Assembly: GCA_035653615.1 (NCBI GenBank)
Contig: DASRBN010000032.1
Location: 62,001 to 126,000 of the forward strand
Reading direction: 5' to 3'
From: Ktedonobacteraceae bacterium
GTDB lineage: Bacteria; Chloroflexota; Ktedonobacteria; Ktedonobacterales; Ktedonobacteraceae
Length of the DNA stretch: 64,000 nucleotides
The notes beneath the pieces are model-generated. The model was not told the origin of the DNA, did no database searches, and saw only the letters and a list, made by a program, of their open reading frames with translations. This document shows, one piece after another, positions 9,129 through 45,418 of this stretch (the first letter of the stretch is position 1; every line of letters begins with the position of its first letter). The position numbers were made by a program, and so were the translations under genes.

Positions 9129-9308
9129 TCGGCCTACCTCCAGTAGTCAGGTACACAGGCCTTAAAAGGCGCGAAAAAAAGATATAATGATAGCATACGA
9201 ATGCCAGATGGCGATGTAATTTAGGTATGCTACGCCAAGCATACTATATAGGAGCCAATCTGTACTGTCAAGCGTAAGTCAACCATCAACTTTTCCAGGA
9301 GTGGAAAT

Positions 9309-9791: not shown

Positions 9792-9857
9792 GTTTGTGAT
9801 GCAAGCGGGCATATTTTTCATCGCGCGATGAAAAATATGCCCGCTTGCATCACAAAC
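9792..9857. terminator. 66-bp perfect palindrome between convergent genes (probable bidirectional terminator)
   Basis: Bases 9792-9824 and 9825-9857 are exact reverse complements without a loop (centre TCATCGCGCGATGA). The palindrome begins immediately after the Nudix stop codon and ends nine bases before the stop of the opposing gene. There is no terminal T-run outside the stem, but TTTTT and AAAAA tracts lie inside the arms. Its position suggests shared termination. Confidence 0.6.
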
Positions 9858-9866
9858 TTCTCTTTC

Positions 9867-14963: not shown

Positions 14964-15755
14964 ATGCCGCTTACAGATATACACACAGTTCTCTCGCAGC
15001 GCCCTCGTGGGCTTGTTCTGGACATTGATGGGACGCTGAGTCCTATCGCGCCTACGCCGGAAGAGGCGCGTCTTTATCCCGGTGTAGCTTCTTTATTGGA
15101 GCGCGCGCGGGAGCATGCTCATGTTGCTATTGTCACGGGACGCAGCATAGAAAGCGGCGCGGCAATAGTGAATGTTGAGGGATTGACCTATGTCGGCAAT
15201 CACGGCCTGGAATGGTGCGATGGCTTGCCCTCGACGCACAAGGTACAAATAGTGCCGCAGGCGCTGCCATTCGTGGAGCCAGGCAAACAATTGCTGGACC
15301 TGGCGGAACTGGAACTCGTCGCAATGCCAGGAGTACTGATAGAACGCAAGCGTACCGGCGGATCAATACACTATCGCCTTTCTCCCGACCCGGAAGAGGC
15401 ACGTGAAAAGATACTGGCGCTGCTGGCAGAGCCTGCGCGGGAGCTGCATATGCGTTTGAGCGAGGGCAAATATGTAGTGGAGATCAGGACACCACTGTCA
15501 ATAGACAAAGGAGTGTCTTTGCGACGTTTCGTAGAGCTTCACCAGTTGCGGGGCGTGATCTATGCCGGAGATGACCGCACCGATCTGGATGCCGTCCTGG
15601 AGGTAGCACGCTTGCGACAAGATGGCTTAGCGGCCCTGGCGATTGTTGTTGAGCATAACGATACGCTGCCAGCACTGCTGGAGCGCGCGGATATCATCGT
15701 GCATGGAGTGGAGGGTATGGTGGCACTACTGCGCCAGATAGTCGATGAATTGTAA
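14964..15755 (+). CDS. otsB: Trehalose-6-phosphate phosphatase
   Basis: 263-aa HAD-family phosphatase that converts trehalose 6-phosphate to trehalose. Motif I is LVLDIDGTLSPIAPTPEEA with the nucleophilic and acid/base aspartates, HAD motif II/III features appear as VTGRS and the distal Lys region, and the final metal motif is YAGDDRTDLDA. AGTAGGA precedes the ATG at 14964. It converges with the synthase gene otsA on the opposite strand, 69 bases away, so the two steps of trehalose synthesis are adjacent but not in one operon. Confidence 0.92.
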   Translation: MPLTDIHTVLSQRPRGLVLDIDGTLSPIAPTPEEARLYPGVASLLERAREHAHVAIVTGRSIESGAAIVNVEGLTYVGNHGLEWCDGLPSTHKVQIVPQALPFVEPGKQLLDLAELELVAMPGVLIERKRTGGSIHYRLSPDPEEAREKILALLAEPARELHMRLSEGKYVVEIRTPLSIDKGVSLRRFVELHQLRGVIYAGDDRTDLDAVLEVARLRQDGLAALAIVVEHNDTLPALLERADIIVHGVEGMVALLRQIVDEL

Positions 15756-15824
15756 AATGTGCGGGGCAGGAATCAGAGCGAGAGGCCAGGGCGACCGCGA
15801 GGGGCGCCCTTTCATAGAAGAACC

Positions 15825-17396
15825 TTATCCCGCATTCGAAGACACCTCCTTCAATGGAAGGGGCAAGGGAGCAGAAGTGGCCGTATCCAGCAGCGCGTTG
15901 ATATCTTCTACCTGCCGGCGCAACCAGTGGCTCAGGTCATGCTGCTCGACTTCCTGCCGCGCCAGCGTCGCTAACCTGTGGCGTTCCTGGGGAGGCAGCA
16001 TCAGGGCCTTATAGAGGGCGTGGGCGGTCTCGGCTGTATCGGTAGGCGAGGTAGGAATACAGGCCTTCGCCATTTGCTGGTAAACTCCGGCTGTGCGCGA
16101 TAGTACCAGGACACCATCCTTTTTGTTGACGACAGGCCCTTCCTTGGCAACCAGGTTCATACCGTCAATAATCGGATTCACCAGCAGCACGTCATAAAAT
16201 TGCATAGCGGCAAGGGCTTCTACGCGATCGTTCTGGAAAAACGCATGAATGGGCGTCCACGTATCCGTCCCGTATTTCTGATTGATCTCTTCTATCAGCT
16301 TCACAATCTCAGCATTGTGGCGCTGGTACACCGTCAATGATTGGCGCGATGGGACGAGAAAGGCCAGAAAATTGACTTTGCCTTGCAATTCGGGATGCTC
16401 ATCGAGCATCTGGGCAAATGCCTGGAAGCCGCGCAGGATGTTTTTTGTCGGCTCAACACGATCAACACGCACAATGGTCTTCTCATTAAGCAGGGGGCGC
16501 ATCTTCTCAGCGGCTCTTTTTCCGGCAGCGCTCTGTACAATTTTGCGCTCCTGGACGACAGAAATGGAAATGGGATAAGCGTTTACCTGGGTAGTGCGCC
16601 CGCGCCAGTAAATGGTTCCCCCGCCTTTCACGGTATCGTGTTCAACTTCAACCCCTTCGAGGAACATCTCCGCACCCTGCAAGAAATTACTGGCGTCATT
16701 CTCGGTCTGGAAACCAAGAATATCATTGCCAACGAGACCACTAAAGATAGCATACGCAATATTACTGGGCAAGAAATTCCAGTAACGCCCCTCGGGCCAC
16801 GGAATATGAATAAAATGCTGCAAAACGACGGAGGGATAGCAGGCGCGAATCATCGCGGGCGCGAGATACAGGTGGTAGTCATGCAGCATAACAACGGCCG
16901 GGGTTTCCTCGCGTTGAAGCTCCTCGCATACGGCATCCGCGATGGCCTGATTGGCCTTACTATAGCCATTTTTCCACGCATCTTGAATCACCTCATCGCT
17001 CAGTTTTTCCGTATGAAGATCGTAGAGGTAGTGCTGTAAAAACCAGAGTAACTGGTTACTGATCTTCTCATAGTGTTTGCGGTAAACAAGCCTGGGAATG
17101 GTGACGTAGCGAAGCTGCATCTTTTGACCGGGCAATGGGGAGGGCAGTAATCCATCCTGGGATTCTTTAAATGCAATACGATCTCCTTCGGTCATCGACA
17201 AGGCTACCCAGGTGACATTATTGGAGTTGCCAGCATCTGCGAGCGCTGTGACCATTCCGCCTGCTCCCCTGCGGTATTTGAGCGTTTTGCCCTGACTTAA
17301 GAAGAATTCGACGGGGCCGCGGTTGGTGGCAATGATAAGACGATCAGCGTGTATCAAGCGAGAAGGCCTTTTTTGTAGCGCCATCTGCGTCGACAT
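15825..17396 (-). CDS. otsA: Trehalose-6-phosphate synthase (GT20)
   Basis: 523-aa glycosyltransferase joining a nucleotide-activated glucose to glucose 6-phosphate, the first step of trehalose synthesis. Family signatures are NRGPVEFF, VMLHDYHLYLAPAMIR, FIHIPWPEGRYW, RVEPTKNILRGF and NPIIDGMNLVAKEGPVVN, in the usual order. The start at 17396 (MSTQMALQK) has AGAAAGGA upstream; the ATG at 17459 would add 21 unlike residues. It faces otsB convergently. Trehalose presumably serves as osmo- or desiccation protectant. Confidence 0.94.
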   Translation of the reverse strand: MSTQMALQKRPSRLIHADRLIIATNRGPVEFFLSQGKTLKYRRGAGGMVTALADAGNSNNVTWVALSMTEGDRIAFKESQDGLLPSPLPGQKMQLRYVTIPRLVYRKHYEKISNQLLWFLQHYLYDLHTEKLSDEVIQDAWKNGYSKANQAIADAVCEELQREETPAVVMLHDYHLYLAPAMIRACYPSVVLQHFIHIPWPEGRYWNFLPSNIAYAIFSGLVGNDILGFQTENDASNFLQGAEMFLEGVEVEHDTVKGGGTIYWRGRTTQVNAYPISISVVQERKIVQSAAGKRAAEKMRPLLNEKTIVRVDRVEPTKNILRGFQAFAQMLDEHPELQGKVNFLAFLVPSRQSLTVYQRHNAEIVKLIEEINQKYGTDTWTPIHAFFQNDRVEALAAMQFYDVLLVNPIIDGMNLVAKEGPVVNKKDGVLVLSRTAGVYQQMAKACIPTSPTDTAETAHALYKALMLPPQERHRLATLARQEVEQHDLSHWLRRQVEDINALLDTATSAPLPLPLKEVSSNAG

Positions 17397-27946: not shown

Positions 27947-28216
27947 ATTCGTTCGTCACATTCCCTCATCTGCCCACTCTCCACAAACTCTTCCCCTGAC
28001 TACGTTTATTTCAGCAGGATTTCTCATGCTACGCATCTGGTATGCAAAAGATGTATGAAATGTTTTAAGCGTGCGTTTTGAGCGTAAAACCGGGCGGAAA
28101 TCTTGTTTTTGCCGGGTACTGGCAGTGGAAATACTGCCCTGTAGCTCGCCGGATAGACCAAAAGTCCTGTATATTGTGGGGGCGATCTTCCGATTGTCCT
28201 GCCATTGGAGAATCGT

Positions 28217-30610
28217 ATGCAACGTAATCTTGTACGCAATGTGCTATTTATCGCTACCAGTGTTGTACTCATTTGCGCCGGTCTGCTGGCGATGCGCCTG
28301 GCAGCACGCGCAGATCAGAATTCACCATCGTCTTTGAATGGGAATTTCGTGCCCATGATTGCGCAGGCTCAATACTTACAGGCCAGCGATCCCAATCAGC
28401 AGTTGAAGCTCTCTATCGGTCTGCAATTACGCGATGCATCAGATCTGGATACCCTTTTAAGCGCTATTTATAACCCTCAATCTTCGCAATATCACCACTA
28501 CCTGACGCCTGGCGAGTTCGAACAGTTATTTGCCCCAACGTCAGACCAGGTGCAGCAGGTCGTTGCCTATTTACAGAGCCAGGGTTTGACGGTCAACAGC
28601 GTCGCGCCCAACAATCTGCTCATCGATGCCACAGGCACGGTTAGCGCCGTGCAGCAGGCCTTCAATACGCAGATCAATAATTACCAGCTGGGCGGCCAGA
28701 TTTTCTATGCCAATGCGACTCCACCCAGCGTGCCCTCTTCAATTAGCCAGTACATCGCCTCCATCGGCGGTCTTGACGATAGCGTGCAATATTCGCCGCT
28801 TTATTCACGCCTGGCCTCTTCCAGTGTGCATACCGGGCAAAGCCGCATTCATACGTCGCTATTAGCCGGACCTACAAGTGGTTACGGTCCGCAGGATTTG
28901 TCCAACGCTTATGATGCGGCACCCTTGCAGAGCGCCGGAATGCTGGGCGATCATCAGACCATCGCGCTCTTCGAACTCGATGGCTACCAGGCCAGCGACG
29001 TTGCACAGTATTTCCAGTATTACAATCTCGGCACGCCGAATCTCAGCAACGTGCTGGTCGATAATTTCAGTGGCAACCCGGGACAGGGCGCGATTGAGGT
29101 TGAACTAGATATCGAGGTCGCGGCGGCCATGGCACCGCATGCCAGTCAGATTGTCTACGAAGGTCCCAATACGACACAGGGACTGAACGATACATATAAC
29201 CAGATCGTGCATGACGACAAGGCGCAGATTGTGAGCATCAGCTGGGGATTGTGCGAGACCAGCACCGGCCCGGCAGAGTTGCAGACGCTGGACAACATAT
29301 TTAAGCAGGGAGCGGCAGAAGGCATGGCGTTCTTCGCGGCCTCTGGCGATTCGGGCGCGTACGATTGCGCCGATAGTAACCTGGCTGTGGACTCGCCCGC
29401 CGATGATCCCTATGTGACCGGTGTGGGGGGCACTACTTTGCAGGTCAATGGGGGCGCGTATGGCGGCGAGTCGGTGTGGTCAAATCCGAACGATACGCAT
29501 CGCAGTCCCAAGGGCGCGGGCAGCGGCGGCGGCGTCAGCAATACCTTCCAGATGCCTTCGTGGCAAACAGGAGCGGGTATCATCAGCAGTTACAGTAGCG
29601 GCACGCCCTGCCATGCTCCAAATGGCCAGTATTGCCGCGAGGTGCCGGATATCACGGCGGACGGCGATCCGGCGACGGGCTATGCCATGTACTGCACGGT
29701 GGTGAACGCGGGCTGTCCTTCCGGTGGCTGGTTAACGGTTGGTGGTACGAGCGGCGCAGCCCCGTTATGGGCGGGCAGCGCGGCCTTAATCAACCAGTAT
29801 TTGCAGGCACAGGGCAAGCCGCCTATCGGCAACGCCAACCCTACGCTTTATAGCCTGTTTAACGCGCAACAGCAATTGCCGGCGTTCCATGATATTACCA
29901 GCGGCAACAATCTCTATTATCCGGCAACAAGTGGCTACGACATGGGAAGCGGCATAGGGTCGCCCGACATCAACAATATCGCCCACGATCTTGCCTTGCT
30001 CAATGGTGGCGGCACACCCACTCCTACACCCTCGCCGACCAGTACCCCTTCGCCATCTCCATCTCCTTCGCCATCACCAACCAGCACGCCCTCACCGACG
30101 CCATCCCCTTCGCCGTCTCCGACACCCCCACCGCCATTGATCCAGAACGGCGGATTCGAGAGCGGATTGCCTCCCTGGCAGCAATCCTCATCCGGCGGCT
30201 ACCAGCTCGTCAGTAATTTTAACGCGCACACGGGACAGAACAGCGCTTACCTGTGTGGTTATCCAGGTTGCGATGATCGCATCTGGCAGATCTTCACCGT
30301 ACCGACCAGCTATACAAAGATCACCATCACCTACTGGTGGTATTCGGATACGAATAAGACGGGCAATCAATGTTTTGATTACTTCTATAGCCAGGTGCAT
30401 ACGACCAGCGGAGCCACGATTGCGAATATGCAGACGAGTTGCAATACGCAGGTGACGAACTACTGGGTAGCGAAAACCTACGATCTCTCATCAGCTCTCG
30501 CGGCATATAAGGGCAAGCAGGTGATGCTCTTCTTCCGCGGCACCAACATGCCGAACCAGTACCAGCCAACTGATTTCTTCGTAGATGATGTGGTTATTAG
30601 TGTGCAGTAG
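28217..30610 (+). CDS. Secreted sedolisin-type serine-carboxyl protease (S53, kumamolisin-like)
   Basis: 797-aa exported acid protease. An N-terminal hydrophobic segment (LFIATSVVLICAGLLAMRLA) is followed by a pro-kumamolisin activation domain (about residues 40-190) with YHHYLTPGEFEQLFAP, and a subtilisin-fold catalytic domain. Catalytic Glu and Asp lie in GAIEVELDIEVAAAM, the oxyanion Asp in AASGDSGAYDC, and the nucleophile in VGGTSGAAPLWAG. A Pro/Thr/Ser linker (TPTPSPTSTPSPSPSPS) leads to a C-terminal beta-sandwich (NGGFESGLPPW), likely a substrate-binding module. GGAG before ATG 28217 supports the start. Typical of acidic-soil heterotrophs; probably degrades extracellular protein. Confidence 0.93.
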   Translation: MQRNLVRNVLFIATSVVLICAGLLAMRLAARADQNSPSSLNGNFVPMIAQAQYLQASDPNQQLKLSIGLQLRDASDLDTLLSAIYNPQSSQYHHYLTPGEFEQLFAPTSDQVQQVVAYLQSQGLTVNSVAPNNLLIDATGTVSAVQQAFNTQINNYQLGGQIFYANATPPSVPSSISQYIASIGGLDDSVQYSPLYSRLASSSVHTGQSRIHTSLLAGPTSGYGPQDLSNAYDAAPLQSAGMLGDHQTIALFELDGYQASDVAQYFQYYNLGTPNLSNVLVDNFSGNPGQGAIEVELDIEVAAAMAPHASQIVYEGPNTTQGLNDTYNQIVHDDKAQIVSISWGLCETSTGPAELQTLDNIFKQGAAEGMAFFAASGDSGAYDCADSNLAVDSPADDPYVTGVGGTTLQVNGGAYGGESVWSNPNDTHRSPKGAGSGGGVSNTFQMPSWQTGAGIISSYSSGTPCHAPNGQYCREVPDITADGDPATGYAMYCTVVNAGCPSGGWLTVGGTSGAAPLWAGSAALINQYLQAQGKPPIGNANPTLYSLFNAQQQLPAFHDITSGNNLYYPATSGYDMGSGIGSPDINNIAHDLALLNGGGTPTPTPSPTSTPSPSPSPSPSPTSTPSPTPSPSPSPTPPPPLIQNGGFESGLPPWQQSSSGGYQLVSNFNAHTGQNSAYLCGYPGCDDRIWQIFTVPTSYTKITITYWWYSDTNKTGNQCFDYFYSQVHTTSGATIANMQTSCNTQVTNYWVAKTYDLSSALAAYKGKQVMLFFRGTNMPNQYQPTDFFVDDVVISVQ

Positions 30611-34781: not shown

Positions 34782-34786
34782 TGATC
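34782..34786. repeat. Target site duplication, left copy (TGATC)
   Basis: TGATC directly precedes the left transposon end at 34787 and is repeated directly after the right end at 45414-45418. A 5-bp duplication is the known signature of Tn7/Tn5053-type transposition. Confidence 0.88.
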
Positions 34787-34857
34787 TGTCACTTTCAACT
34801 TTCGTCTGCACTGATGTGGAATTCGTCTGCACTCGGTCAGTGCAGGCGAATTCCACA
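34787..34857. repeat. Left end of transposon: TIR plus internal transposase-binding repeats
   Basis: TIR 34787-34813 carries TTTCGTCTGCACTG. A second TTCGTCTGCACT occurs at 34822-34833 and an inverted third copy at 34839-34850. The last two lie in a 19-bp-arm hairpin (34815-34833 and 34839-34857, one mismatch, 5-nt loop CGGTC). Repeated motifs of this kind are the expected TniA/TnsB binding sites. Confidence 0.82.
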
Positions 34858-34895
34858 ACAAGGGGTCAGCACCAAATGAAGGGCTTGGAGGAGAA

Positions 34896-35204
34896 TCATT
34901 CCCCAAGACGTGGGTAGGGAAACCAATAGGGGCGATAGCTGCCATCTTTGTGACATAATTCTGAGGCTGTGGCCTGGCAGAGAATATCCTGGTCCCAATA
35001 GACCCAGATCACCGCTTCACTCATGGGTGATGGACGAACGGTCACCGCTTCATTTGGCCAGTAATGGAGTACATCGTCCCGCTCGTCACGATAATGCCAG
35101 CCGTGCCACTCCAACGTTCCATCACTCCCCACTGAGGCTTCATAGGCTGGCAGCACTTCTCGCAAACTGGGGAGAAACCGGCAGGGATCATCATCCAGAC
35201 GCAT
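34896..35204 (-). CDS. Mu-C-like beta-barrel fragment, in frame with upstream inactive-integrase gene
   Basis: 102 aa (or the last part of a 408-aa protein) following the gene at 35220-36122 in the same reading frame after a single TGA. The segment DGTLEWHGWHYRDERDDVL ... EAVIWVYWDQDILCQATASEL follows the pattern of the C-terminal beta-barrel of Mu/TniA transposases (G-x-x-Y ... W-V-Y ... C-x-A), as also seen in TniA here (YAGERYWHPELAVLVGE). Only a weak ribosome site precedes ATG 35204, which favours origin by a stop codon within a longer gene or stop-codon read-through. It is the last gene before the left end. Confidence 0.6.
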   Translation of the reverse strand: MRLDDDPCRFLPSLREVLPAYEASVGSDGTLEWHGWHYRDERDDVLHYWPNEAVTVRPSPMSEAVIWVYWDQDILCQATASELCHKDGSYRPYWFPYPRLGE

Positions 35205-35219
35205 CCGCCATCCAGCTTG

Positions 35220-36122
35220 TCAGGCCGCCCGTTGCTTCGCGAGAAACGGAGCATAGCCAAAAGTACGCTCACACGCTCGATCAAACAGACGCAGATACTG
35301 GACGGGATCAAGCACCCGACCGGTCAGTTCCTGCTCCCATTGCTGTACGAAGGCGAATTCGTATGGCGTCACTGCTTCTACCTCGGTTCCCCAGACTTTG
35401 GCAGCCTGGATCATCTCGACTGGCAATGGCTGTTGTACGCGTAAGCGGACTGGCGGATGTAAGCACCAGCGATCCTGGCGGAAAAATACCAGCGCATCAT
35501 AGAGCGCGAAGAGCACATCGGCGTCACCTGGCGGCTCGTGTGTCCTCCGAAAGGCCAGGACTTTTTGCGTGGGTTCGTCGATCACCAAGATCAGAAAAGG
35601 CATCATCGTGCTGTGCGCTGTCCGCATCCGAACAGCGGTCTGTTGCCAGCCAATGCGCCAGGTGGTCGCTTGTCTTTGAACCGGGTCACTCGACAGCATG
35701 GAGGCGCGGCGACGCCCGAAGAAACAGCAAACCCCAGTCACCACATCGAACGGTAACGCGCAAGTTCCAACGTTGAGCGCCATGCGGCGTAAGATTTCCT
35801 CCACCGTTGCAACGCGCCGGAAGAGGGGTGAGACATAGAGGGCCTCGATCAACTCCACCATCGGCTGCGTCACATTGGAGAAAAAGGTGGTCAGGGTCGC
35901 TTCTTGTGTCGACGGGGATGCATCTGGCAAGAAGACATGCGACATCCGCTCCTGGATCAGCCCCCACGTATCCATCCCCTTGATCCAGGGAAGAATCTCG
36001 TACACCTGGGGTACATAGGCTGCCACTTCTACTAATTGCTCAAGGAGGCGCGGAATCTGGTGGACCGGATCTTCGGCGAGCCAGGCGGGCGCCTCGGGCT
36101 GGCAAAACGGATTCGGCCTCAT
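35220..36122 (-). CDS. Inactive TniA-like integrase-fold protein, third gene of tni operon
   Basis: 300-aa protein whose ATG overlaps the tniB stop by four bases. Residues 154-265 align by eye with the TniA catalytic core: WRIG versus WQID, FLILVIDEPTQKVLAFRR versus YLTLVIDSVSRLVMAGRF, EPP versus DPP, PVRLRVQQ versus PDEIWVDN and FVQQWEQEL versus GIVERFHETL. The DDE residues are replaced by Gly158, Gln230 and Gln260/261, so it cannot be a transposase. Residues 1-150 are helical with no zinc-binding CxxC/HxxC, unlike TniQ. It occupies the operon position of tniQ. A regulatory, architectural or target-choosing role is inference. The family was not otherwise recognised. Confidence 0.65.
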   Translation of the reverse strand: MRPNPFCQPEAPAWLAEDPVHQIPRLLEQLVEVAAYVPQVYEILPWIKGMDTWGLIQERMSHVFLPDASPSTQEATLTTFFSNVTQPMVELIEALYVSPLFRRVATVEEILRRMALNVGTCALPFDVVTGVCCFFGRRRASMLSSDPVQRQATTWRIGWQQTAVRMRTAHSTMMPFLILVIDEPTQKVLAFRRTHEPPGDADVLFALYDALVFFRQDRWCLHPPVRLRVQQPLPVEMIQAAKVWGTEVEAVTPYEFAFVQQWEQELTGRVLDPVQYLRLFDRACERTFGYAPFLAKQRAA

Positions 36123-37012
36123 GAGCGAGGGGGCCGTTGTTCTGAGGCAGCCTCATGGGACCCGGCAGGTGAGGGAGGCGGCGGGTGGCGCGGGGTCGGA
36201 ACCTGCGGAATCAGCGTTAAGCGCAGCGTCTCGGCGAGAATAGTCGGCGTGATGCGTTCGACCTGACGGGCATGTGCAATCTGGCTGGCATATTGCAGCA
36301 CCACCCGCAGCTTGCGAAAGGAGGGACACACGCGCTGCCAGAGTTGGAAGCCCATCTCGCGATCGGCTGCATCTTCGGACTGATACTGCCAGTAGGGCAA
36401 CGTCAGAGCAGGCAGCACCGTCGTCAACACCTCCTCCTGGGTGAGCGTCAGAAATTCCATATGCAGGCCAACCCGGCTGACAAACTTCTCATGGCGGGTG
36501 ATCACCCGCAGGATGCGAGGAAGTCCCACGATCACGATGGGGCAGCCGGTGCGGTCGAAGATATGACGCAACAGTTCAAAGCTTTCAATGTTCAGCCAGT
36601 CCCCTTCATCGACCAGCACCAGGTCAAGATCGGTGCGCCGAATGGCTTCGGTGGCGACCGCTTCCATATCATAGACATTGTGACTCGCGTGTTCTCCATT
36701 GAGCGTAGTAATCAACGTTTTCGCCACGGCTTTGGCCGTCGAACGTGGGCTGACTTTGATGCTCACACAGGCTGGAAAGCCGCTGTAGGCCCGAGGGGTC
36801 AGCGCTTGCAGATAGGTCTGCACGGCAATGGTCTTGCCCACTCCTGCATCTCCCGTGACCACACCCATCGTGGCGTAGCCAGTCTCTTCACGCGACTGCA
36901 TCATAAACTGCATACAAGCATGAAAGCGTTTGACACTCTGCGTCATGATGGGTACCTGGCCGGTTGGCAAGCGATTTTCAAAATCGAGGTCATCGGCGTA
37001 TTCAGGAATCAT
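36119..37012 (-). CDS. tniB: TniB/TnsC-like AAA+ ATPase
   Basis: 297-aa ATPase that in this superfamily forms filaments on target DNA and activates the DDE transposase. Walker A is GDAGVGKT (residues 54-61), Walker B LVLVDEGD (131-138), followed by sensor-1-type IVIVGLP and a C-terminal lid with an arginine (RKLRVVLQYASQIAHAR). The start at 37012 (MIPEYADDLD) has AGAAAGGA upstream and overlaps the end of tniA by 11 bases; its stop overlaps the next gene by four. Translational coupling is therefore likely. A Pro/Ser-rich tail of about 30 residues is extra. Confidence 0.9.
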   Translation of the reverse strand: MIPEYADDLDFENRLPTGQVPIMTQSVKRFHACMQFMMQSREETGYATMGVVTGDAGVGKTIAVQTYLQALTPRAYSGFPACVSIKVSPRSTAKAVAKTLITTLNGEHASHNVYDMEAVATEAIRRTDLDLVLVDEGDWLNIESFELLRHIFDRTGCPIVIVGLPRILRVITRHEKFVSRVGLHMEFLTLTQEEVLTTVLPALTLPYWQYQSEDAADREMGFQLWQRVCPSFRKLRVVLQYASQIAHARQVERITPTILAETLRLTLIPQVPTPRHPPPPSPAGSHEAASEQRPPRS

Positions 37013-38105
37013 GGGGGGCGTCCTTTCTGGCCTGCGCAGCGCGGGCCACCAAAAAATCAAAGAGGTCTGGGGCGCGAGGGGAGGAAAGAGGAGCAACCAG
37101 GACCTCGTGTGGTGGCGTGGCCTGTCGTCCCTTGCGTTGCTCTGTTGTCAATGGATGAGGCGTTTCGAGGGCCTCCCGCGCGGCGTTGATGCGGCGGCAT
37201 GCCTGTCCTCGCTGGCGACGTTGTGCCTCGACGACCTCCTTTCGCTGGACCGCCTGCCCTTTCGGCGAGGACAGCGCGAAGGCGGTGCAACGCCACTGCT
37301 CCCCGAAGAAGACCTCCAGTTCGTCGGGAGCGGTATAGCAGGGGGCTGCGCGCACCAGCACCTCCTCGCCCACCAGCACCGCCAGTTCGGGATGCCAATA
37401 CCGCTCCCCGGCATACTTGATGCCCTCCTTGAGGACGTGCCGGTGGGTCAGTTCTTTGAGCAGCATATCCAGGAGGCGCTCATCAACCGGTAGCGGTGTG
37501 GCGTGCTCCTGCCAGAAGGCGAAGGGCGTCTGTCCGGTCGCGCTGTGCATCTCCTGGTGATACTGGTCGATGAAGGTCCGAAAGCGCTGCTCCAGGTCAG
37601 CGAGGGAGAGTTCGGCCTTGGCAGCGGGGTTGCGCTCCACGACGTTTCTGCCCACATAGCCGGGAAGTGTGGCCCACAGACGCGTGTCCAGCGTCTCATG
37701 AAAGCGTTCGACGATCCCGCGTATTTGTGGCTCATGTGGAGGTCCGGGAAAGAGTGTGATGCCCAACCCGTGCGCTAATTGCTGCACATGATGGGCAATC
37801 AGGTCTTTTCCGTTGTCCACCCAGATTTCATCGGGAACGCCCCCAAACGGCTTCTGTTCGGACGTCCGTATGGCGTCGCGGATCGCAGCCGCCACCATGA
37901 AGCGATCCGGGGGATCATAGCTGAAGCGTCCAGCCATCACCAGGCGCGAGACGCTGTCGATCACCAGGGTCAAATACGGGCGCACTTCCCCCGAAAGCGT
38001 GCGATGGGAAGGCGCGCGGAGATCGCGGACCAGCACATGCAAGGGAGCCTTGTGATCAATCTGCCAGACGATGCGGTGGGCATCATGCGGAATGGGGTAC
38101 GTCAA
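37002..38105 (-). CDS. tniA: TniA/TnsB-type DDE transposase, catalytic part (frame 2)
   Basis: Retroviral-integrase-fold transposase core. Counting from TTG 38105: Asp17 (WQIDHKA), Asp97 (IWVDNGKD) and Glu133 (RGIVERFHET) form the DDE triad with the classical D-35-E spacing. A Mu-type C-terminal beta-barrel follows (IKYAGERYWHPELAVLVGE), then a basic tail that should contact the ATPase. The open frame begins at 38270 but its first 55 residues are the shadow of the N-terminal half. Homology suggests one protein joined by a +1 shift at CTT-G-ACG (about 38104-38108). Independent start at TTG is possible since GGGAGGAGGAG lies upstream, though 19 bases away. Confidence 0.85.
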   Translation of the reverse strand: MTYPIPHDAHRIVWQIDHKAPLHVLVRDLRAPSHRTLSGEVRPYLTLVIDSVSRLVMAGRFSYDPPDRFMVAAAIRDAIRTSEQKPFGGVPDEIWVDNGKDLIAHHVQQLAHGLGITLFPGPPHEPQIRGIVERFHETLDTRLWATLPGYVGRNVVERNPAAKAELSLADLEQRFRTFIDQYHQEMHSATGQTPFAFWQEHATPLPVDERLLDMLLKELTHRHVLKEGIKYAGERYWHPELAVLVGEEVLVRAAPCYTAPDELEVFFGEQWRCTAFALSSPKGQAVQRKEVVEAQRRQRGQACRRINAAREALETPHPLTTEQRKGRQATPPHEVLVAPLSSPRAPDLFDFLVARAAQARKDAPHDS

Positions 38106-38967
38106 GGCGATAGCGATTGCGGAACTCCTCCTCCCGTCCATCGGCCAGCAGACGCACCGGGGCTGGGATCTGCGCGCAGATGGAGCGCACCTGCCAGAGG
38201 CTGGGGGCTGCTTCCCCCGTCGAGGTCGCGTGCTGGCAGGCCAGCTCATACACAAAGCGCACGGGAGCATCCAGGTGCGTGAGGCGCAGGTCTTCGACGA
38301 TCTGCACCATCTGCGGACTCACGCCATGATGCTTGCCCTTGTCCCCGCGTCCACGTGGTGCCAGCCCGACCAATCCGTCACGCCGGAAGCGCGTGTGGTA
38401 GTCCCGCAAGGTACGCAAGCTGACCCCGACCATCTCCGCGCGTTGCGCCAGAACGGTATTGGAGACGTGTGCCTGCTCGGCCAACTCCCCAAGCAAGGCG
38501 CGGCGGCGGAAGAGTCCGTCACGTTGTGCTTCTGTAAGCGCGCCTAGATCAGACGGTACGCGGGGCACAACCACACGTCTGGCAGGAGCGAGACCTACCA
38601 TCCCACCCAGACGATAGCGACGGAGCCACCGCCGTGCCTGAAGGATGGTCCAGCCAGCCCTTTCAGCCAGAGCGCGGAGATCCTCACCGGTGATGGTTTC
38701 CGCTTCTGCAAGCTCCCCTAAGACTGCGTAGCGCCTCTCGATGAGCGCCAAGGTCGCTTCAGGAAGTTCAGGCCACTCAGTCGGGACCAGCGCGTCCAGT
38801 CCTCCACGCAAATAGCAGGTGTGCCACCTGCGCAGCAGAGCCACCGGGACGCCTACCTGGCGAGCTCGCGCGGCGAGCCTCGTCCCGCTGAGGTCCTCGA
38901 CCGTCGTTCCGAGCAGCTGCGAGCGGCGACGGGCTTCCGCCGCCTTGAGCTGTGCCAGCGGTAGCAT
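38083..38967 (-). CDS. tniA: TniA/TnsB-type transposase, DNA-binding N-terminal part (frame 1)
   Basis: 294-aa part starting at 38967 (MLPLAQLKAAEARR) with AGGAGG seven bases upstream. It has three helix-turn-helix-like modules of the same pattern: ARARQVGVPVALLRRW, ALAERAGWTILQARRW and AQRAEMVGVSLRTLRDY, each followed by an RxxGLxxLxP-type turn. These should bind the repeated end motifs. It ends with FRNRYRLDVPHSA and TGA at 38083, where the catalytic part continues in the +1 frame (YRL then TYPIPHD). Together they would give about 660 residues, near the size of TnsB. Either a recent one-base insertion, an assembly error, or programmed frameshifting. Confidence 0.82.
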   Translation of the reverse strand: MLPLAQLKAAEARRRSQLLGTTVEDLSGTRLAARARQVGVPVALLRRWHTCYLRGGLDALVPTEWPELPEATLALIERRYAVLGELAEAETITGEDLRALAERAGWTILQARRWLRRYRLGGMVGLAPARRVVVPRVPSDLGALTEAQRDGLFRRRALLGELAEQAHVSNTVLAQRAEMVGVSLRTLRDYHTRFRRDGLVGLAPRGRGDKGKHHGVSPQMVQIVEDLRLTHLDAPVRFVYELACQHATSTGEAAPSLWQVRSICAQIPAPVRLLADGREEEFRNRYRLDVPHSA

Positions 38968-39207
38968 CTCTATCCCTCCTGAGAAGAGCTCTCCTCGCCG
39001 ATGGTGTAGAGAGGATTGCTCACGGTTGGAACAGCAAGTCGCAAGAAGCGTCTCACCCAAAAGGCCTGGCACCCCGGCGGAGGTGTTCTGTGCCTCTTCC
39101 TCAGTTCACCATCGCGTTGCGCCTCCCAGAGGAGTGCTCAATCCACAAGCTGGCGAGGCCGCGGCCTGAGCGAGGCTTAGGCCGCCAACACAAGGAACGA
39201 TTGCTGG

Positions 39208-39819
39208 CTACGTCCTGGTAGACAGGCCAGGCGCCTGCTCTTCTGTGTACCCTGCCTCCTGGGAGGAGACGCGCGCCTGGCCTGAACGCACCAGCATCTG
39301 CGCCAGGATCACACCTACCAGCAGTGCCATGACCAGGGTGATGATGGACCAGAGCCAATCCGGCTTCTCCACCATCAGAAAGACGATACCCAGCCCCAGC
39401 GTCGTCATGCTGATCACGGATGTCCAGTGCAGCGGATGGTTCAGCTCGCGTCTGAAATCGGGGGGAATCGGTCCTTGTCCCAGCGCCGTCGCCCGCTGGG
39501 CGATGCGCCGGGCATGTGTCCCATTGAAGGCCGCACCTATAATACTCAAGAGAACCAGCAAGCCCAGTGACAGATCGATCCAGGCGTGACTCCATCCCCA
39601 GAAGCCAATCGTCATCGCCAGCCCTGCACCGAGGATGAGCAAGGACGTGATGGGCAACACCACATCCAGCAGCTTGCTGGCGCTGCTCCACGCGCGCACC
39701 GTCTCGACAGTATGTGCGTTGCGGACCCCCACCATAATCGCCACCTCAACGGCGAACGCCATAAAGAGGCCCAGGACGCCGAGAATGTGGACAAAGAGGA
39801 CGAGATGATACCAATCCAT
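39208..39819 (-). CDS. DUF2269-type integral membrane protein (cargo)
   Basis: 203-aa protein with four to five membrane helices: YHLVLFVHILGVLGLFMAF, LDVVLPITSLLILGAGLAM, WIDLSLGLLVLLSII, TSVISMTTLGLGIVFLM and IITLVMALLVGVILAQML. The opening WYHLVLFVHILG resembles DUF2269 membrane proteins with a conserved His in helix 1. AAAGGAG before the ATG. It is the last gene of the cargo block controlled presumably by the LuxR-type regulator and is followed by tniA. Biochemical role unknown. Confidence 0.7.
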   Translation of the reverse strand: MDWYHLVLFVHILGVLGLFMAFAVEVAIMVGVRNAHTVETVRAWSSASKLLDVVLPITSLLILGAGLAMTIGFWGWSHAWIDLSLGLLVLLSIIGAAFNGTHARRIAQRATALGQGPIPPDFRRELNHPLHWTSVISMTTLGLGIVFLMVEKPDWLWSIITLVMALLVGVILAQMLVRSGQARVSSQEAGYTEEQAPGLSTRT

Positions 39820-39944
39820 AGTGTTCAGCTCCTTTCGTCAATAACCAGTTGCTCATGATTCACATTCGCGCGGTGAAAATCATTCCACGGATAAACGATC
39901 CTGGCTTCCTTTTTTTGGCAGAGCGAGTATCGATTGCTCTGAAC

Positions 39945-40172
39945 TCATTGATGCTCCTGCTCCTCCGTGGAACCGGAGATGCGATTCACGGACAACAGCG
40001 GGATGGACAGGTCGCGCACCTTCATCAGCACGCCATGCAACGCCGCCTCATCGACCAGTTTCCCGCGCAGCAGGGTCGTGCCGCCTTCCTCATGGGTGAT
40101 CGCCAACCCCTCGAACCAGGTCGACCAATGGTGATCGAGATGTGCTTGCACACGAATTTCGTACATACTCAT
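39945..40172 (-). CDS. 75-aa YEIRV-type small protein (cargo)
   Basis: Short soluble protein starting MSMYEIRVQAHLDHHWSTWF, with AGGAGAAAG upstream. The pattern Y-E-I-R-V ... H-L-D ... W ... W-F-G/E-G-L followed by G-T-T-L-L-x-G and VRDLSIPLLSV is one I recall from small Chloroflexota proteins found beside MalT-type LuxR regulators. The fold looks ferredoxin-like (beta-alpha-beta). It lies between the SnoaL-like and DUF2269 genes on the same strand. Function unknown. Confidence 0.7.
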   Translation of the reverse strand: MSMYEIRVQAHLDHHWSTWFEGLAITHEEGGTTLLRGKLVDEAALHGVLMKVRDLSIPLLSVNRISGSTEEQEHQ

Positions 40173-40374
40173 AGCGCTGACTTTCTCCTGCTGAGCAAGA
40201 TCTATTTACCATCGTTTGGAGAGACACGGATCGATGAGCAACCGGTTCACGGAGCAACCATGTGCCGTCCCATCGATCTTGCGTTGTGTCTGCCTGAAGT
40301 GTAACCGCAGCAGTGGGTGAGATGCATCCCTCCAAAGTGCTATTGAGGGGTTGATTGTCGTATATGAAGAGATG

Positions 40375-40806
40375 CTAGCTGGACTGCCCGGGTAATGGAA
40401 CCACACCCAACTGTTGCATGAGGCTCATGACATTCATCAACAGCCGACTTTCTTTGAGTTTCCCATCAACCCAGATATCAAACACCATCGCAGGGACCGT
40501 CACCCCCTTTCCCGTGGGAGGAATACCCAGAAACACCCCCTGGTGGGTACCGCGCCAGGTATTGTAGCTTGCCACCTTCTCCCCTTCAGCCACCAGTTCT
40601 TCAATGGTCCATTCAAAGTCGGGAAACGCTGTATGCACCATGGTGAGCGTATCTATCAGCCCCTGGCGCCCCTGCTGTTGCCCGGGAAGTGGATCATGCT
40701 CGATATAGTCGAGTGCCACCAGTTCATGAGCAACCGCTATATTTCCTTTGTTCATGACCTCGTCAACAAAGCGCCGCATAAGCGCTTTGTTCTCTTCTGC
40801 TGACAT
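40375..40806 (-). CDS. SnoaL-like ester cyclase family protein (cargo)
   Basis: 143-aa protein of the NTF2-like fold. The start MSAEENKALMRRFVDEVMNKGN, the HDPLPGQQQGRQGL segment and the repeated strands (VASYNTWRGTHQGVFLGIPPTGK) match the SnoaL-like polyketide cyclase/ester cyclase group, which binds or rearranges small hydrophobic compounds. AAGGAG precedes the ATG. It lies directly behind the LuxR-type regulator gene within the transposon. Substrate unknown; enzymes of this family are often mis-named and may only bind ligands. Confidence 0.82.
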   Translation of the reverse strand: MSAEENKALMRRFVDEVMNKGNIAVAHELVALDYIEHDPLPGQQQGRQGLIDTLTMVHTAFPDFEWTIEELVAEGEKVASYNTWRGTHQGVFLGIPPTGKGVTVPAMVFDIWVDGKLKESRLLMNVMSLMQQLGVVPLPGQSS

Positions 40807-40964
40807 TGGTTGTTCTCCTTCTCGAAATAATGATGCATGTCGTGAGGTATTTCATCATTGCCTCTGACCACAGTGTATGTGAGTAGAGGGTTGGAAGACA
40901 ATGAACCAAGGTGGATACTGGAGGTTTATTTTTTGCGCGACTTTTGGGTAGAAGAAAAAAAACA

Positions 40965-43900
40965 TTAGAGGAGGTGCAGGGATCGCGCACGAGCGAGGGC
41001 CTGTGTGCGGCTCTGTACCCCTAGCTTGCCGCAGATGTTATACACGTACTTCTTGACGGTACCCGTACTCACGATCAGGCGTTGGGCAATTTCGCGATTG
41101 GAAGCCCCTTCGGCCAGTAACTGCAACACCTCCTGTTCGCGCTTCGTGAGGGGTTCGATGAGTCCATCGGGGTGAGAGAGGAAACGAGCCGTGTCTTCGC
41201 CTGCCGGCTCCCCAAAAGCTGCGAGCAGTGTAGCGGCAGAGTGCGGGCTGACCCCGCGTGCGAGCAAGTGGCGCAACAGGTCCCGCACCGGTGTCCCCTC
41301 ATCGACAAAGAGGCGGACGTACCCCTGCGGTTCGGCGAGGGACAGGGCACGGGAGAGCGCAGAGCAGGCCGCGTTCCGCTCACGTTGTGCAGCCCACGCC
41401 AGCGCCTCCAGGAGCAGGAGTTCCAGCACACTCCTTCTGCGCGCTTTCGCCTCAGCGTCCCGCAGCCGTCGCTCCAACCTGTGAGAGATCTCCTGCCAGC
41501 GGGAAGCAGATGGGTTCTCACGCCCCTCTACAATGCCTATGCGCAGCAAGGTCAGATAGGCTCGTTCGTTCTGGTACCTGAGATCGTCATCTGTGACCGT
41601 GAGGCCGCAGTGTTCCGCCCAGCCCTTCGCTGCCAGAAGGTTGCCCTGCATCAGTTCCATGTGGGCACGCCAGGCGCTCGCGCTCGCCATCAGGGAGGGA
41701 GCGAGGTGACGGGCGCCAGCCAGGTGCGTGAACGTGTCCAATGCTGCGAGCGCCTGCGGATACTGGCCGCGTGCCAGATACAGGCGCGCGAGCGTGGTGT
41801 AACCGAGCATGAGGACGTGGCCTTCCGCCGTCAGACCGCCCTCGACCAGTTCCATACCCTGTTCCAGGAGATGGGCAGCCTGGTCCAACTCGTTCCACTC
41901 CCGCAGAATATCAGCCAGCCCGAAGAAGTAGACCAGGCTTCCGGTGATAGCCTGCAAGTCCTCGGGCCGCGGTGCAACCTGCGCCGCTTGCTCGAACGTC
42001 GCTGCTGCCTGGCGCAGCCTCCCCTGCATAGCCTGAAGCTGGGCCAGATTGGTAAGGCTTCGCATGGTCATGGACTGATTCTCGGAGGTCTTGAGCACTG
42101 TCACCATCTCCAGGGCCAGCCGCTCCTGCGGCGCGGTCACGTCCCCATCTGCAAGGAATGCCTGGGCAACGTTCAAGCGGGAAATCGGCCCCGGTGTCCT
42201 CTCTGGATGCGGCAGCAAGACGAGCGCTTGCTGGGCCTGCGCCACCGAGCGAGCAAGATCGCCCGAGAAGCGAGCCATCACCCCGCGCGTCGCAGCGATA
42301 TGGCCCCGAAGAAAAGCCGTCTGTTCGGAAGGTGGCTGCCCGTCGAGGCAGCGCTCCGCCATCTGCAGGCGTGCCTCGGCCTCCTCTAACCGATTGGTAA
42401 ACATCAGGGCGATGGCGTGAATGATGCAGAGCAAGGGGCGCGTGCAGACGAACGATTCAGGCAGGCGAGCAAGCCAACCAAGCACGCGCTGCACCTCCAT
42501 GCCAAGTCCTGCCCAACTGTTCACATCGATGCGCTCGATCAGATCGGCGGCGCGCTCGATATCTGCAGCAGCGAAGGCGTGCTGGACCGCTTCGGCGAAC
42601 AATCTCTGCTGCTCATACCAGCGGCTGGCGCGTACGTGCAGGTGAGGGACCAATGACGGATCGTTCTGCTGCAAGCGTGTGCGCAGCACTTCGGCAAACA
42701 GGTGGTGATAGCGATACCAGCGCTGCTCATCATCCAGCGCCACCACAAAGAGGTTGGCCTGCTCGAGTGCAGCCAGCCGTGACTGGCTCTCTGGTTGTCC
42801 GGTCACGGCATCGCAGAGAGGGCCACTGAGCCGCTCGAGGATGGAGGTGGCGAGCAGAAACGACTGCACCTCGCGTGGTTGGCGCGAGAAGACCTCTGCA
42901 GTGAGATAATCAAGGATGAAGCGATGACTGCCGGTGAAGGCGCGGAGAAAGGCGGCAACATCACTCCTGCCGGACAAGGAAAGGGCTGCGAGCTGCAGTC
43001 CGGCAATCCATCCTTCTGTCCGCTGGTCGAGCGCAGCCAGGGCTTCAGCCGGCAGGTCAAGCCGCATCACGGTATGTAAAAACTCACGCGCCTCATCGAG
43101 ATCAAACCGCAGATCGGCGGCCCGGACCTCGGTCAGCTGTCCACGCGCCCGCAGTCGCATCAATGGCAGTGGCGGGTCGGCGCGAGTAGCCATGACCAGG
43201 TGCATCTGCGGTGGCAGATGCTCCAACAAGAAAGCTACTCCACCGTGAATGGTCTCGGTCTCAATCACATGATAGTCGTCCAAAACGAGCGCAAACGGAT
43301 CGGTCACCGACTCAAGCACGTCGTTGATAAGCAAGGCGAGGACGCGCTCCAGGGCAATACCTGGTGACGTTTCGAGCAGTGCTCGTGCCGTCGTCCCCAG
43401 TTGCGGATGCAGGGTTTGCAAGGAGGCAAGGAAGTAGGAGAAGAAACGGATTGGCTCGTTCTCCCCGGGTTCAAGCGAGAGCCAGGCGACCGGCGTCCCA
43501 CTTTCGGCCAGCCATTGAGCTAACAATGTGGTTTTGCCGAAGCCGGCTGGGGCTGAGATAAGGGTCAGGGCAGACTCCATGCCCTGCTGCAGGCGCTCGA
43601 CGAGGTGGGCACGGGAGACCAGGCGGCTACGCGGGCGAGGTGGGTGGAGTTTGGTCGCAAGCAGTGGATCATGCGGCAGGCGCTGCTCATCCATGGGTAT
43701 GGCGTGAGAGGGTTCAGCAGGTTCAGCGGTAGAGCCTGCCGCTGAAGGGAAGGCAGCGGCAACCTCCTCTAAGCGAGCGAGGGTGAGATCGGCGCTGCGC
43801 CCCAGGTACTTCTTCGCCATCTTCGGGCCAATGCGCCGGTAGGCATACCAATACTGAGCTCCCCTGGGCCTGGCCTCTTTGCGCACCGTCAACTGCCCCT

Positions 43901-44057
43901 GTTGCCCTTGAAATGAGAAGGAGGAAACGCCTTCTAGCCAGGCGAACCATCCGTTATCATCGAATGGGAAAGGAGGGGAGACGCTACGACCCTCTTCCTC
44001 CAGTTCATAGGCTTGGCGATCAGTGTGCCAACGCAGGCGGGGATGGGACGCCGCCAT
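40965..44057 (-). CDS. LuxR-family MalT-type ATP-dependent transcriptional activator (cargo)
   Basis: 1030-aa signal-integrating activator (STAND class). N-terminal segment with YWYAYRRIGPKMAKKYLG (about residues 69-85), seen to my knowledge mainly in Ktedonobacteria; NTPase domain with Walker A APAGFGKTTLL (168-178) and FALVLDDYHVI; winged helix; TPR-like sensor repeats (about 520-900); C-terminal LuxR helix-turn-helix LTKREQEVLQLLAEGASNRE and TVKKYVYNICGKLGV. The start at 44057 follows AAAGGGG; an ATG at 44093 would lie inside the upstream inverted repeat. Likely activates the three downstream cargo genes on binding a small ligand. Confidence 0.88.
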   Translation of the reverse strand: MAASHPRLRWHTDRQAYELEEEGRSVSPPFPFDDNGWFAWLEGVSSFSFQGQQGQLTVRKEARPRGAQYWYAYRRIGPKMAKKYLGRSADLTLARLEEVAAAFPSAAGSTAEPAEPSHAIPMDEQRLPHDPLLATKLHPPRPRSRLVSRAHLVERLQQGMESALTLISAPAGFGKTTLLAQWLAESGTPVAWLSLEPGENEPIRFFSYFLASLQTLHPQLGTTARALLETSPGIALERVLALLINDVLESVTDPFALVLDDYHVIETETIHGGVAFLLEHLPPQMHLVMATRADPPLPLMRLRARGQLTEVRAADLRFDLDEAREFLHTVMRLDLPAEALAALDQRTEGWIAGLQLAALSLSGRSDVAAFLRAFTGSHRFILDYLTAEVFSRQPREVQSFLLATSILERLSGPLCDAVTGQPESQSRLAALEQANLFVVALDDEQRWYRYHHLFAEVLRTRLQQNDPSLVPHLHVRASRWYEQQRLFAEAVQHAFAAADIERAADLIERIDVNSWAGLGMEVQRVLGWLARLPESFVCTRPLLCIIHAIALMFTNRLEEAEARLQMAERCLDGQPPSEQTAFLRGHIAATRGVMARFSGDLARSVAQAQQALVLLPHPERTPGPISRLNVAQAFLADGDVTAPQERLALEMVTVLKTSENQSMTMRSLTNLAQLQAMQGRLRQAAATFEQAAQVAPRPEDLQAITGSLVYFFGLADILREWNELDQAAHLLEQGMELVEGGLTAEGHVLMLGYTTLARLYLARGQYPQALAALDTFTHLAGARHLAPSLMASASAWRAHMELMQGNLLAAKGWAEHCGLTVTDDDLRYQNERAYLTLLRIGIVEGRENPSASRWQEISHRLERRLRDAEAKARRRSVLELLLLEALAWAAQRERNAACSALSRALSLAEPQGYVRLFVDEGTPVRDLLRHLLARGVSPHSAATLLAAFGEPAGEDTARFLSHPDGLIEPLTKREQEVLQLLAEGASNREIAQRLIVSTGTVKKYVYNICGKLGVQSRTQALARARSLHLL

Positions 44058-44063
44058 CGCATG

Positions 44064-44149
44064 GTTCCCCTTTCTTGTACTGCTGCTACCCAACAGGGTT
44101 CTCTGTCATAGTATACCTGTTGGGTAGCAGCAGTACAAGAAGGGGGAAC
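44064..44149. promoter_or_regulatory. Large inverted repeat upstream of the LuxR-type gene
   Basis: Perfect 24-bp arms at 44074-44097 and 44116-44139 (CTTGTACTGCTGCTACCCAA and complement), extending to about 34 bp with one mismatch so that the AAGAAAGGGGAAC ribosome site of the luxR gene is itself mirrored. The 18-base spacer reads GTTCTCTGTCATAGTATA. Probable operator for autoregulation or a leader hairpin that hides the ribosome site. Confidence 0.6.
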
Positions 44150-44338
44150 TTGCGCGAAGGTTGAGCACTTCGTATAGAACATTTCCCACATCTGCTGATA
44201 GCCACATGCGAGAACAGAGTTTCCCGCTGTAGTGTGATATACTCGGGGCAGGCTTCACGCTCAGCAGCGATTCCCGAAAGCCTTGCTAAGCGGGAAAAAT
44301 TACAGCGAGAAATATTTTTGCGGAGTTTGGAGAACATG

Positions 44339-45338
44339 ATGCAACACGTGACCTCCTTGAAAACGGATCGTTCTGATCAGTCGCCTCATGAGTTCCTGGA
44401 GAACTGGCGGCGATTTTTACAGGAGCATGATCATGCAGCAGGGACGGTCAAAAAGTATACCCAGGCCGTTGCGCATTTCCTGGCCTGGTATGAGCAGGAA
44501 GAACGCATTCCCCTGCAACTGACAACCCTTACGCCGATCGCACTGATTGGCTACCGCAACGAACTCCAACACGAGCAGCACAAATCTGTCAGCACCATCA
44601 ACCTGCGCGTGAGCGCCTTGTGCGCCTGGTGCGCCTGGCTCGTCGACCAGGGCTATCTGCCGCTTGATCCAGCAGCACGTGTCAAGCTGGTCAGTGGAGC
44701 AGTCGGCTCCAAGCGCGAAGGACTTTCCTCGTCTCAGGTCAATGCGCTGCTTCGCCAGGCGCAGGCCTCCCGCGACCCGGCACGCAATTACGCCATTGTG
44801 CAGGTCTTGTTGCAAACGGGCATCCGCTTGAGCGAGTGCAGCGGTCTCACCCTGGGTGATATCACCTTCGGAGAACGCAGTGGTCTGCTGCTGATCCGCG
44901 CCGGCAAAGGCAATAAGGTCCGTTCGGTGCCGCTCAATGCCTCGGCGCGCGAGGCCCTGGCCGCCTATGTGGCGCCACGCCTGGAGGTGGAAAGGGTGTC
45001 ACTCAAGACGGTGGCGGCGAAGTGGCCCAAACCACTATCGCCACGCTCCTTTGAGTCAGTGTGGCTCAGTCAGAAAGGTGGAGCCCTCACCGATGGGACA
45101 GATGATTGCCGAGCTGGTGGAGGCTGCAGGTGAACTGGTCCCCGAGGAGACCAGCGCTCACCACCTGCGCCACACCTTTGCCCGCAGTTACCTGGCGCAA
45201 TATCCAGGAGACCTGGTCGGGCTGGCAGCGCTGTTGGGGCATCGCTCGCTCGATACCACCCGACTCTATAGTGAGCCGTCGGTCTCGACCCTTTCGACTC
45301 GCGTTGAACGACTCTCACTGAATGCCTATTCGGGATGA
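44339..45338 (+). pseudogene. Tyrosine recombinase (XerC/phage-integrase-like), frameshifted; possible transposon resolvase
   Basis: Site-specific recombinase split over two frames. Frame 1 from ATG 44339 (TTTGGAGAAC upstream) has a SAM-like N-terminal domain (EFLENWRRFLQEH, STINLRVSALCAWC) and catalytic Arg163 (LLQTGIRLSECSGL) and Lys190 (AGKGNKVRSVPL). It loses the frame near 45092; the +1 frame continues MGQMIAELVEAAGE, SAHHLRHTFARSYL (HxxR), LLGHRSLDTTRLYS (His and nucleophilic Tyr) to 45338. All active-site residues survive, so the damage is a single net +1 change or a sequencing error. Standing at the right end in a family that normally encodes the serine resolvase TniR, it may have resolved cointegrates. 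Confidence 0.82.
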
Positions 45339-45363
45339 GAGGCAAGGGAAGACACTCGTTTGC

Positions 45364-45413
45364 CAGTGCAGACGAAAACCACAATCCAGTGCAGACGAAA
45401 GTTACAAGTGACA
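45364..45413. repeat. Right end of transposon: TIR plus internal repeat
   Basis: TIR 45387-45413 is the reverse complement of TGTCACTTGTAACTTTCG plus TCTGCACTG. A second CAGTGCAGACGAAAA lies at 45364-45378. Both match the motif of the left end. Confidence 0.88.
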
Positions 45414-45418
45414 TGATC
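45414..45418. repeat. Target site duplication, right copy (TGATC)
   Basis: Direct repeat of 34782-34786, immediately outside the right terminal repeat. Confidence 0.88.

Follow-up and report, generated by a model that had tools for sequence, protein, structure and literature searches.

A casmuC-like, catalytically inactive TniA paralogue in a broken, CRISPR-less transposon of a Ktedonobacteraceae bacterium, and candidate homing spacers in two Cas-bearing relatives

The closest described relatives of the element considered here are the CasMu-I systems, which, as described by Altae-Tran 2023 (PMC10910872), comprise MuA-like and MuB-like genes, an inactivated transposase paralogue called casmuC, an HTH gene, and type I-A-like cas genes without cas3. 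Contact between CasMuC and Cas8 figures there as an AlphaFold prediction, and the main text presents a homing spacer for one CasMu-V element only. A 2025 classification (PMC12669027) lists the I-A CASTs as associated with Mu-like transposons, devoid of TniQ-TnsD, and experimentally uncharacterised. The Tn7-like CASTs (I-F3, I-B, I-D and V-K) are a more distant comparison: casmuC elements resemble them in a TnsB/TnsC-type core, in the multiple transposase sites of their ends, and in what appears to be RNA-guided homing beside a conserved gene by means of a wobble-tolerant spacer, but differ in having no TniQ, an inactive transposase paralogue standing in its place. Wobble-tolerant homing guides have been described for I-F3 CASTs (PMC11406308). 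An inactivated recombinase domain is also reused for target selection in TnsF of Tn6022 (PMC10293859), with the difference that TnsF, which acts with TniQ, is descended from a tyrosine recombinase, and casmuC from the DDE transposase itself.

The stretch of DNA analysed here (the window; 64,000 nucleotides of contig DASRBN010000032.1) contains one minus-strand operon of tniA, tniB and a third gene, which is casmuC, its identity with the published CasMuC being judged from architecture only. The first-pass annotation had supposed that an inactive TniA-like subunit in the position of TniQ was a layout undescribed in Tn7-like elements. This supposition was overtaken by the literature: the layout of two Cas-bearing relatives, described below, matches CasMu-I and casmuC, and the idea of a dead paralogue substituting for TniQ is therefore already in print. 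What is new is a complete but broken casmuC element without cas genes or array, together with homing spacers in the two Cas-bearing relatives. The features of the window element are the following.

34782-34786, no strand: GATCA copy of the target-site duplication, directly outside the right end
34787-34860, no strand: right end (RE), terminus AAGTGACA, with transposase-site repeats TTTCGTCTGCAC / TTCGTCTGCAC at 21-bp spacing and one inverted site
34896-35204, minus strand: casmuC part 2, a 102-aa open reading frame, the Mu-C barrel tail, in unchanged frame after the TGA (Pfam Mu-transpos_C, E 2e-4; family alignment)
35220-36122, minus strand: casmuC part 1, 300 aa: a helical region at the N-terminus plus the RNase H core, catalytically dead (AlphaFold model), stopping at the TGA
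36119-37012, minus strand: tniB, intact, a TnsC/MuB-like AAA+ ATPase (Pfam AAA_22, 3e-17; TniB, 2e-8)
37002-38105, minus strand: tniA, catalytic half: Mu-C barrel and an rve core bearing the triad motifs QID..VDN..ERF
38083-39072, minus strand: tniA, DNA-binding half containing HTH repeats; its frame differs from that of the catalytic half
39208-39819, minus strand: cargo, membrane protein (by eye; without a Pfam match)
40375-40806, minus strand: cargo, SnoaL-like protein (PF07366, E 2e-36)
40965-44093, minus strand: cargo, MalT-like LuxR-family regulator, 1042 aa (PF17874, 3e-58; GerE, 3e-18)
44234-45133, plus strand: tyrosine recombinase, first part (PF00589 positions 3-112), frame lost ahead of the C-terminal catalytic motif
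44937-45338, plus strand: tyrosine recombinase, second part (PF00589 positions 112-167), with the HxxR...Y motif; its frame differs from that of the first part
45363-45413, no strand: left end (LE), TGTCACTTGTAACTTTCGTCTGCACTGG, with two transposase sites; 25 of the 28 terminal bases as in the right end
45414-45418, no strand: GATCA, the left copy of the duplication, directly outside the left end

The element is complete: it extends over 10,627 bp (34787-45413) between the termini TGTCACTTTCAACTTTCGTCTGCACTGA at 34787 and TGTCACTTGTAACTTTCGTCTGCACTGG at 45413, and the 5-bp duplication flanks it on both sides. The site TTTCGTCTGCACTG has three exact occurrences in the 6.6-Mb genome, all of them in the ends of this element. 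With its TGT...ACA ends, repeated transposase sites and 5-bp target duplication, the element has the attributes of a transposon of the Tn7/Mu type. Read from the left end, the gene order is tyrosine recombinase, MalT-like regulator, SnoaL-like protein, membrane protein, tniA, tniB, casmuC, right end.

The genes have fared less well than the ends. The third gene begins at 36122, in a four-base ATGA overlap with the tniB stop codon (36119-36122). It had been annotated as a single minus-strand open reading frame, 34896-36122, coupled to tniB: strand, coupling and position hold, but an in-frame TGA at 35220-35222 cuts the frame into a 300-residue part (35220-36122), which retains the whole of the dead RNase H core, and a 102-residue tail (34896-35204) with the barrel, which has no further stop and an ATG five codons past the TGA. 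The tniB frame starts with an ATG at 37012 (the longest open reading frame is from a TTG at 37096). In tniA, a +1 shift near 38105 (about 38105-38110), absent from the first-pass annotation, separates the catalytic half from an HTH half that ends at 38083. The TGA and the frameshifts are read from one assembly, which is their sole basis. Three broken genes combined with intact ends and an intact duplication indicate that the transposon was mobile in the past and has since begun to decay; the copy in the window is a CRISPR-less relative, probably inactive, and, its casmuC being broken and its element lacking CRISPR, does not serve as a functional example. The frameshifted tyrosine recombinase (44234-45338) lies beside the left end and is perhaps a cointegrate resolvase. 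A tyrosine recombinase is present also in two other TniA-TniB elements (L034, L038), which resemble the window element in core and recombinase and differ from it in that no inactive paralogue is seen beside their tniB; their TniA is active-looking and 26-27% identical to that of the Cas-bearing relative L012.

A search of the window by tblastn with all cas proteins of the two Cas-bearing relatives (L008, L012) detected no cas gene; there is no CRISPR array in the window, no Cas7 match in its genome, and no HTH regulator gene beside its tniA. Thus the window element lacks three attributes of CasMu-I (I-A-like cas genes, array, HTH regulator) and differs further in being broken and in carrying a tyrosine recombinase and other cargo. 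The host genome has two distinct CRISPR loci (L047:49-1644 and L046), one of type I-D, in which 22 or more repeats are present, and one of type III. Both were rejected as guide sources for the window element, being located on other contigs; the I-D spacers in the examined host stretch gave no match to the flanks of the element (best 21/38).

That the third gene is homologous to the TniA core, as first proposed, is borne out by profile alignment and by predicted structure. The casmuC family aligns with TniA by hhalign at E 2.9e-12 over 319 columns; a five-member family profile matches the TnsB of a V-K CAST in the PDB at E 7e-4 and also matches active TniA proteins weakly. (Against the same profile the window copy, with its one internal TGA, scores E 4e-158, a partly circular figure because the window sequence is one of the five rows.) An AlphaFold model of the window protein, made by reading through the TGA, has a mean pLDDT of 62, with 70-87 across most of the RNase H core; the model of the L012 protein has a pLDDT of 78. 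In both, the strands and helices are arranged in the order typical of RNase H and are followed by a barrel, and the best structural matches of both are the TnsB of ShCAST (V-K), the TnsB of Tn7, and MuA (Z 11-13.9 across 204-225 residues; also by Foldseek). A fold unrelated to RNase H, which would have spoken against the original proposal, is accordingly not what is predicted, and the Mu-C-like barrel that had been placed after the core is recovered both by the Pfam match of the tail and in the predicted structures.

The residues originally named at the DDE positions of the window gene (Gly158, Gln230, Gln260/261) are correct. Across the window, L008, L012, L013, L004 and L030, in that order, the alignment, read by eye, has G/A/V/A/I/V at the first aspartate position and Q/G/G/M/R/G at the glutamate position; at the second aspartate position, which adjoins a gap and is less certain, it has Q/A/N/V/E/S. 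An intact triad is present in none of the six sequences. Loss of the triad is therefore a property of the family and not a peculiarity of the window copy, and what is conserved in the position of TniQ, after tniB, is an inactive TniA-like subunit. The four intact members are open reading frames of 403-405 residues, without the triad, without most of the N-terminal HTH region of TniA, and without its C-terminal tail. The casmuC homologues are a real family of inactive TniA paralogues.

The family is sparsely distributed. With the window protein alone as query, full-length relatives came up in three further genomes of Chloroflexota (G001, G056 at E 5.8e-15, and G101), and alignment searches added G445 and G408. 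In all, casmuC is present in 4/400 sampled Chloroflexota genomes, plus G445 and G408 among 158 genomes of one class; the class-level search around G056 covered a single genome. Weak profile matches in G400, G402, G419, G450 and G461 were counted as ordinary TniA proteins, G419 and G461 after reading in full and the other three by frame length only. The searches made of plasmid, phage and viral collections found no casmuC gene. Within the family, tniA in L030 (2106-5216) is joined by a deletion almost directly to casmuC, without tniB; casmuC and HTH fragments occur in that genome on a different contig (L031:9380-9885).

Two relatives are CasMu-I elements by their gene content: L008 (with L011, contig JAHJIN010000470.1 of a Chloroflexi MAG) and L012 (Candidatus Chloroheliaceae, JACAUC010000002.1). 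Each has a divergent HTH gene, tniA, tniB, casmuC, cas6, a cas8-like gene, cas7, cas5, a mini-array and the right end, in that order; L012 has a second cas6 after cas5, ahead of the mini-array. Their cas proteins match Cas6, Cas7/DevR and Cas5a, and Cas8a weakly (5.6e-4). No cas3 and no tniQ was among the genes scanned in the two element stretches. With MuA-like and MuB-like genes, an inactivated paralogue, the HTH gene, I-A-like cas genes without cas3, and an array, they thus have the published CasMu-I constitution. The repeats of the mini-arrays are 37 nt long, and their hairpins are no stronger than in shuffled sequences. The left end was found in neither element, and the L012 contig begins near the HTH gene. 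(L008 has two tandem tniB genes at 8092-9979, the second more diverged.)

Two features of arrangement run through the family: casmuC follows tniB in the window, L008, L012 and L013, and precedes the cas genes in L008 and L012. Its overlap with tniB is four bases in the window and in L012, and one base in L013. Nor do these elements contain the TniQ/TnsD that marks a Tn7-like CAST, as judged by the genes scanned in them. A TniQ hidden elsewhere in the genome was considered and rejected: the genomes of the window, L012 and L013 have no reported TniQ match. In G056 there is a weak match only, on another contig.

The mini-arrays say something about how these two elements came to be where they are. 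The last spacer of the L012 mini-array (10986-11164) matches the right flank at 32 of 36 positions (11881-11916), positions 18, 24, 25 and 36 of the spacer being mismatched; the next best place scores 21, and shuffled spacers reach at most 23. The last spacer of the L008 mini-array (15677-15849), whose last repeat is degenerate, matches the right flank at 26 of 37 positions (16101-16137), against a shuffled maximum of 24 and an equal 26/37 match inside the element at 15533. Eight of the 11 mismatches between the L008 spacer and its target are at third-codon positions; in translation the spacer gives IDLIVLGYMAVG, and the target gene IDLIVLGYMAGG at the corresponding place. Both protospacers are on the coding strand and fall at the 3' end of the gene adjoining the right end, with their PAM-distal side towards the element; the distances to the right terminus are 37 and 39 bp, with the termini of L008 and L012 set by analogy, without a duplication. 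These flank matches are direct sequence evidence that the two elements were placed by their own guides; the evidence is strong for L012 and moderate for L008. Relative to the main text of PMC10910872, homing spacers in two CasMu-I-type elements are new (cases given only in the supplement would be missed by this comparison). They would provide such elements with a target rule: the 3' end of a gene, with 37-39 bp between the right end and the PAM-distal side of the protospacer.

What might a transposase paralogue without a catalytic triad be kept for? We put at roughly three in four the probability that CasMuC is an adaptor between Cascade and transposase and that the copy in the window is a relic in decay, CRISPR-less and probably inactive. 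CasMuC is a TniA paralogue that has shed its catalytic triad and most of the end-binding HTH region and has kept the RNase H/Mu-barrel body. In the Cas-bearing relatives it most likely replaces TniQ, and would link a crRNA-guided, cas3-less, I-A-like Cascade to the TniB/TniA complex; the integration complex would next place the right end some 37-39 bp away from the protospacer, measured from its PAM-distal end. The 10,627-bp element of the window inserted with a 5-bp duplication, and its casmuC, tniA and tyrosine recombinase genes are all interrupted. Such a scheme would amount to a TniQ-free wiring of RNA-guided transposition through reuse of a dead copy of the transposase.

Rates of divergence bear on the adaptor proposal. 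Identities between the window and L008 are 52.3% for TniA, 47.1% for TniB (against tniB1 of L008) and 29.8% for CasMuC; between L008 and L012, both Cas-bearing, they are 48.0, 46.4 and 48.2%. Accelerated divergence is confined to casmuC and to the window lineage, the window TniA and TniB being as near to L008 as are those of L012. A change of pace in casmuC only, in a lineage without cas genes, is as expected of a protein whose partner would be the Cas complex, and offers independent evolutionary evidence tying the job of the gene to that complex. In G001, which belongs to the same taxonomic order as the window, a cas6 cut after its first ~60 residues directly follows casmuC (L010:1466-1645), and loss of the cas module in place therefore does occur; the CRISPR-less state of the window element may likewise be derived.

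The readings that compete with an adaptor differ in how much of this they accommodate. CasMuC might instead be a core subunit for transposition or target capture that works without CRISPR, some members having recruited cas genes later, so that the cas-less elements (the window and ZM16-3) would represent the original state. Two elements, the window's and that of ZM16-3 (L009/L013), do have casmuC beside the right end without cas genes, and the clean duplication of the former suggests that a cas-less form may have moved. In ZM16-3, moreover, casmuC is intact, normally diverged and not accelerated relative to tniB (the interruption there is on the tniA side); this is not predicted by a model in which CasMuC is an adaptor and nothing else, and a CRISPR-independent selector therefore stays under consideration at lower odds. 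(ZM16-3 also has an unrelated transposase-like open reading frame between the end of tniA and tniB, at L009:766-1719.) But the cut cas6 of G001 attests to loss of cas genes in place, such loss could have followed insertion, and the casmuC of the window is both broken and accelerated; the trees built for TniA, TniB and CasMuC did not settle whether the cas-less members are basal. We regard this reading as unlikely, and equally doubtful its corollary of a standing cas-less lineage in which the dead transposase and TniB choose the target and CRISPR was added later. Were it true, the dead paralogue would be a CRISPR-independent target selector.

Inactive transposase derivatives are known to act as inhibitors, and CasMuC could be an immunity factor or dominant-negative regulator, an inactive subunit that joins or caps the transposase and so stops self-insertion or limits copy number. 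The predicted fold would fit into a transposase tetramer, and casmuC is present in a single copy in the window's genome; but its fixed place between tniB and cas6, its translational overlap with tniB, and its faster divergence in the absence of cas speak for a connection with cas and not for copy control, which makes a regulator improbable. Still less probable is that the split genes work, casmuC and tniA each being read as two pieces by re-initiation, a leaky TGA-C or frameshifting. Both breaks do lie at domain boundaries (RNase H/barrel in casmuC, HTH/core in tniA), and the tail is free of further stops, with an ATG close after the TGA; against this, the tyrosine recombinase is a third frameshifted gene with its break inside the catalytic domain, the +1 shift in tniA has no recognised slip site, and casmuC and tniA are unbroken in relatives. 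Least credible of all is that casmuC is simply an active transposase in decay: the window copy is indeed broken, but triad-less casmuC adjoins an active-looking tniA in L008 and L012, and we reject the idea on the strength of the four intact relatives, from which all three acidic residues are likewise gone.

Elsewhere in the window, an 801-aa open reading frame (28205-30610) resembles, by eye, a secreted peptidase with a Pro/Thr/Ser-rich linker.
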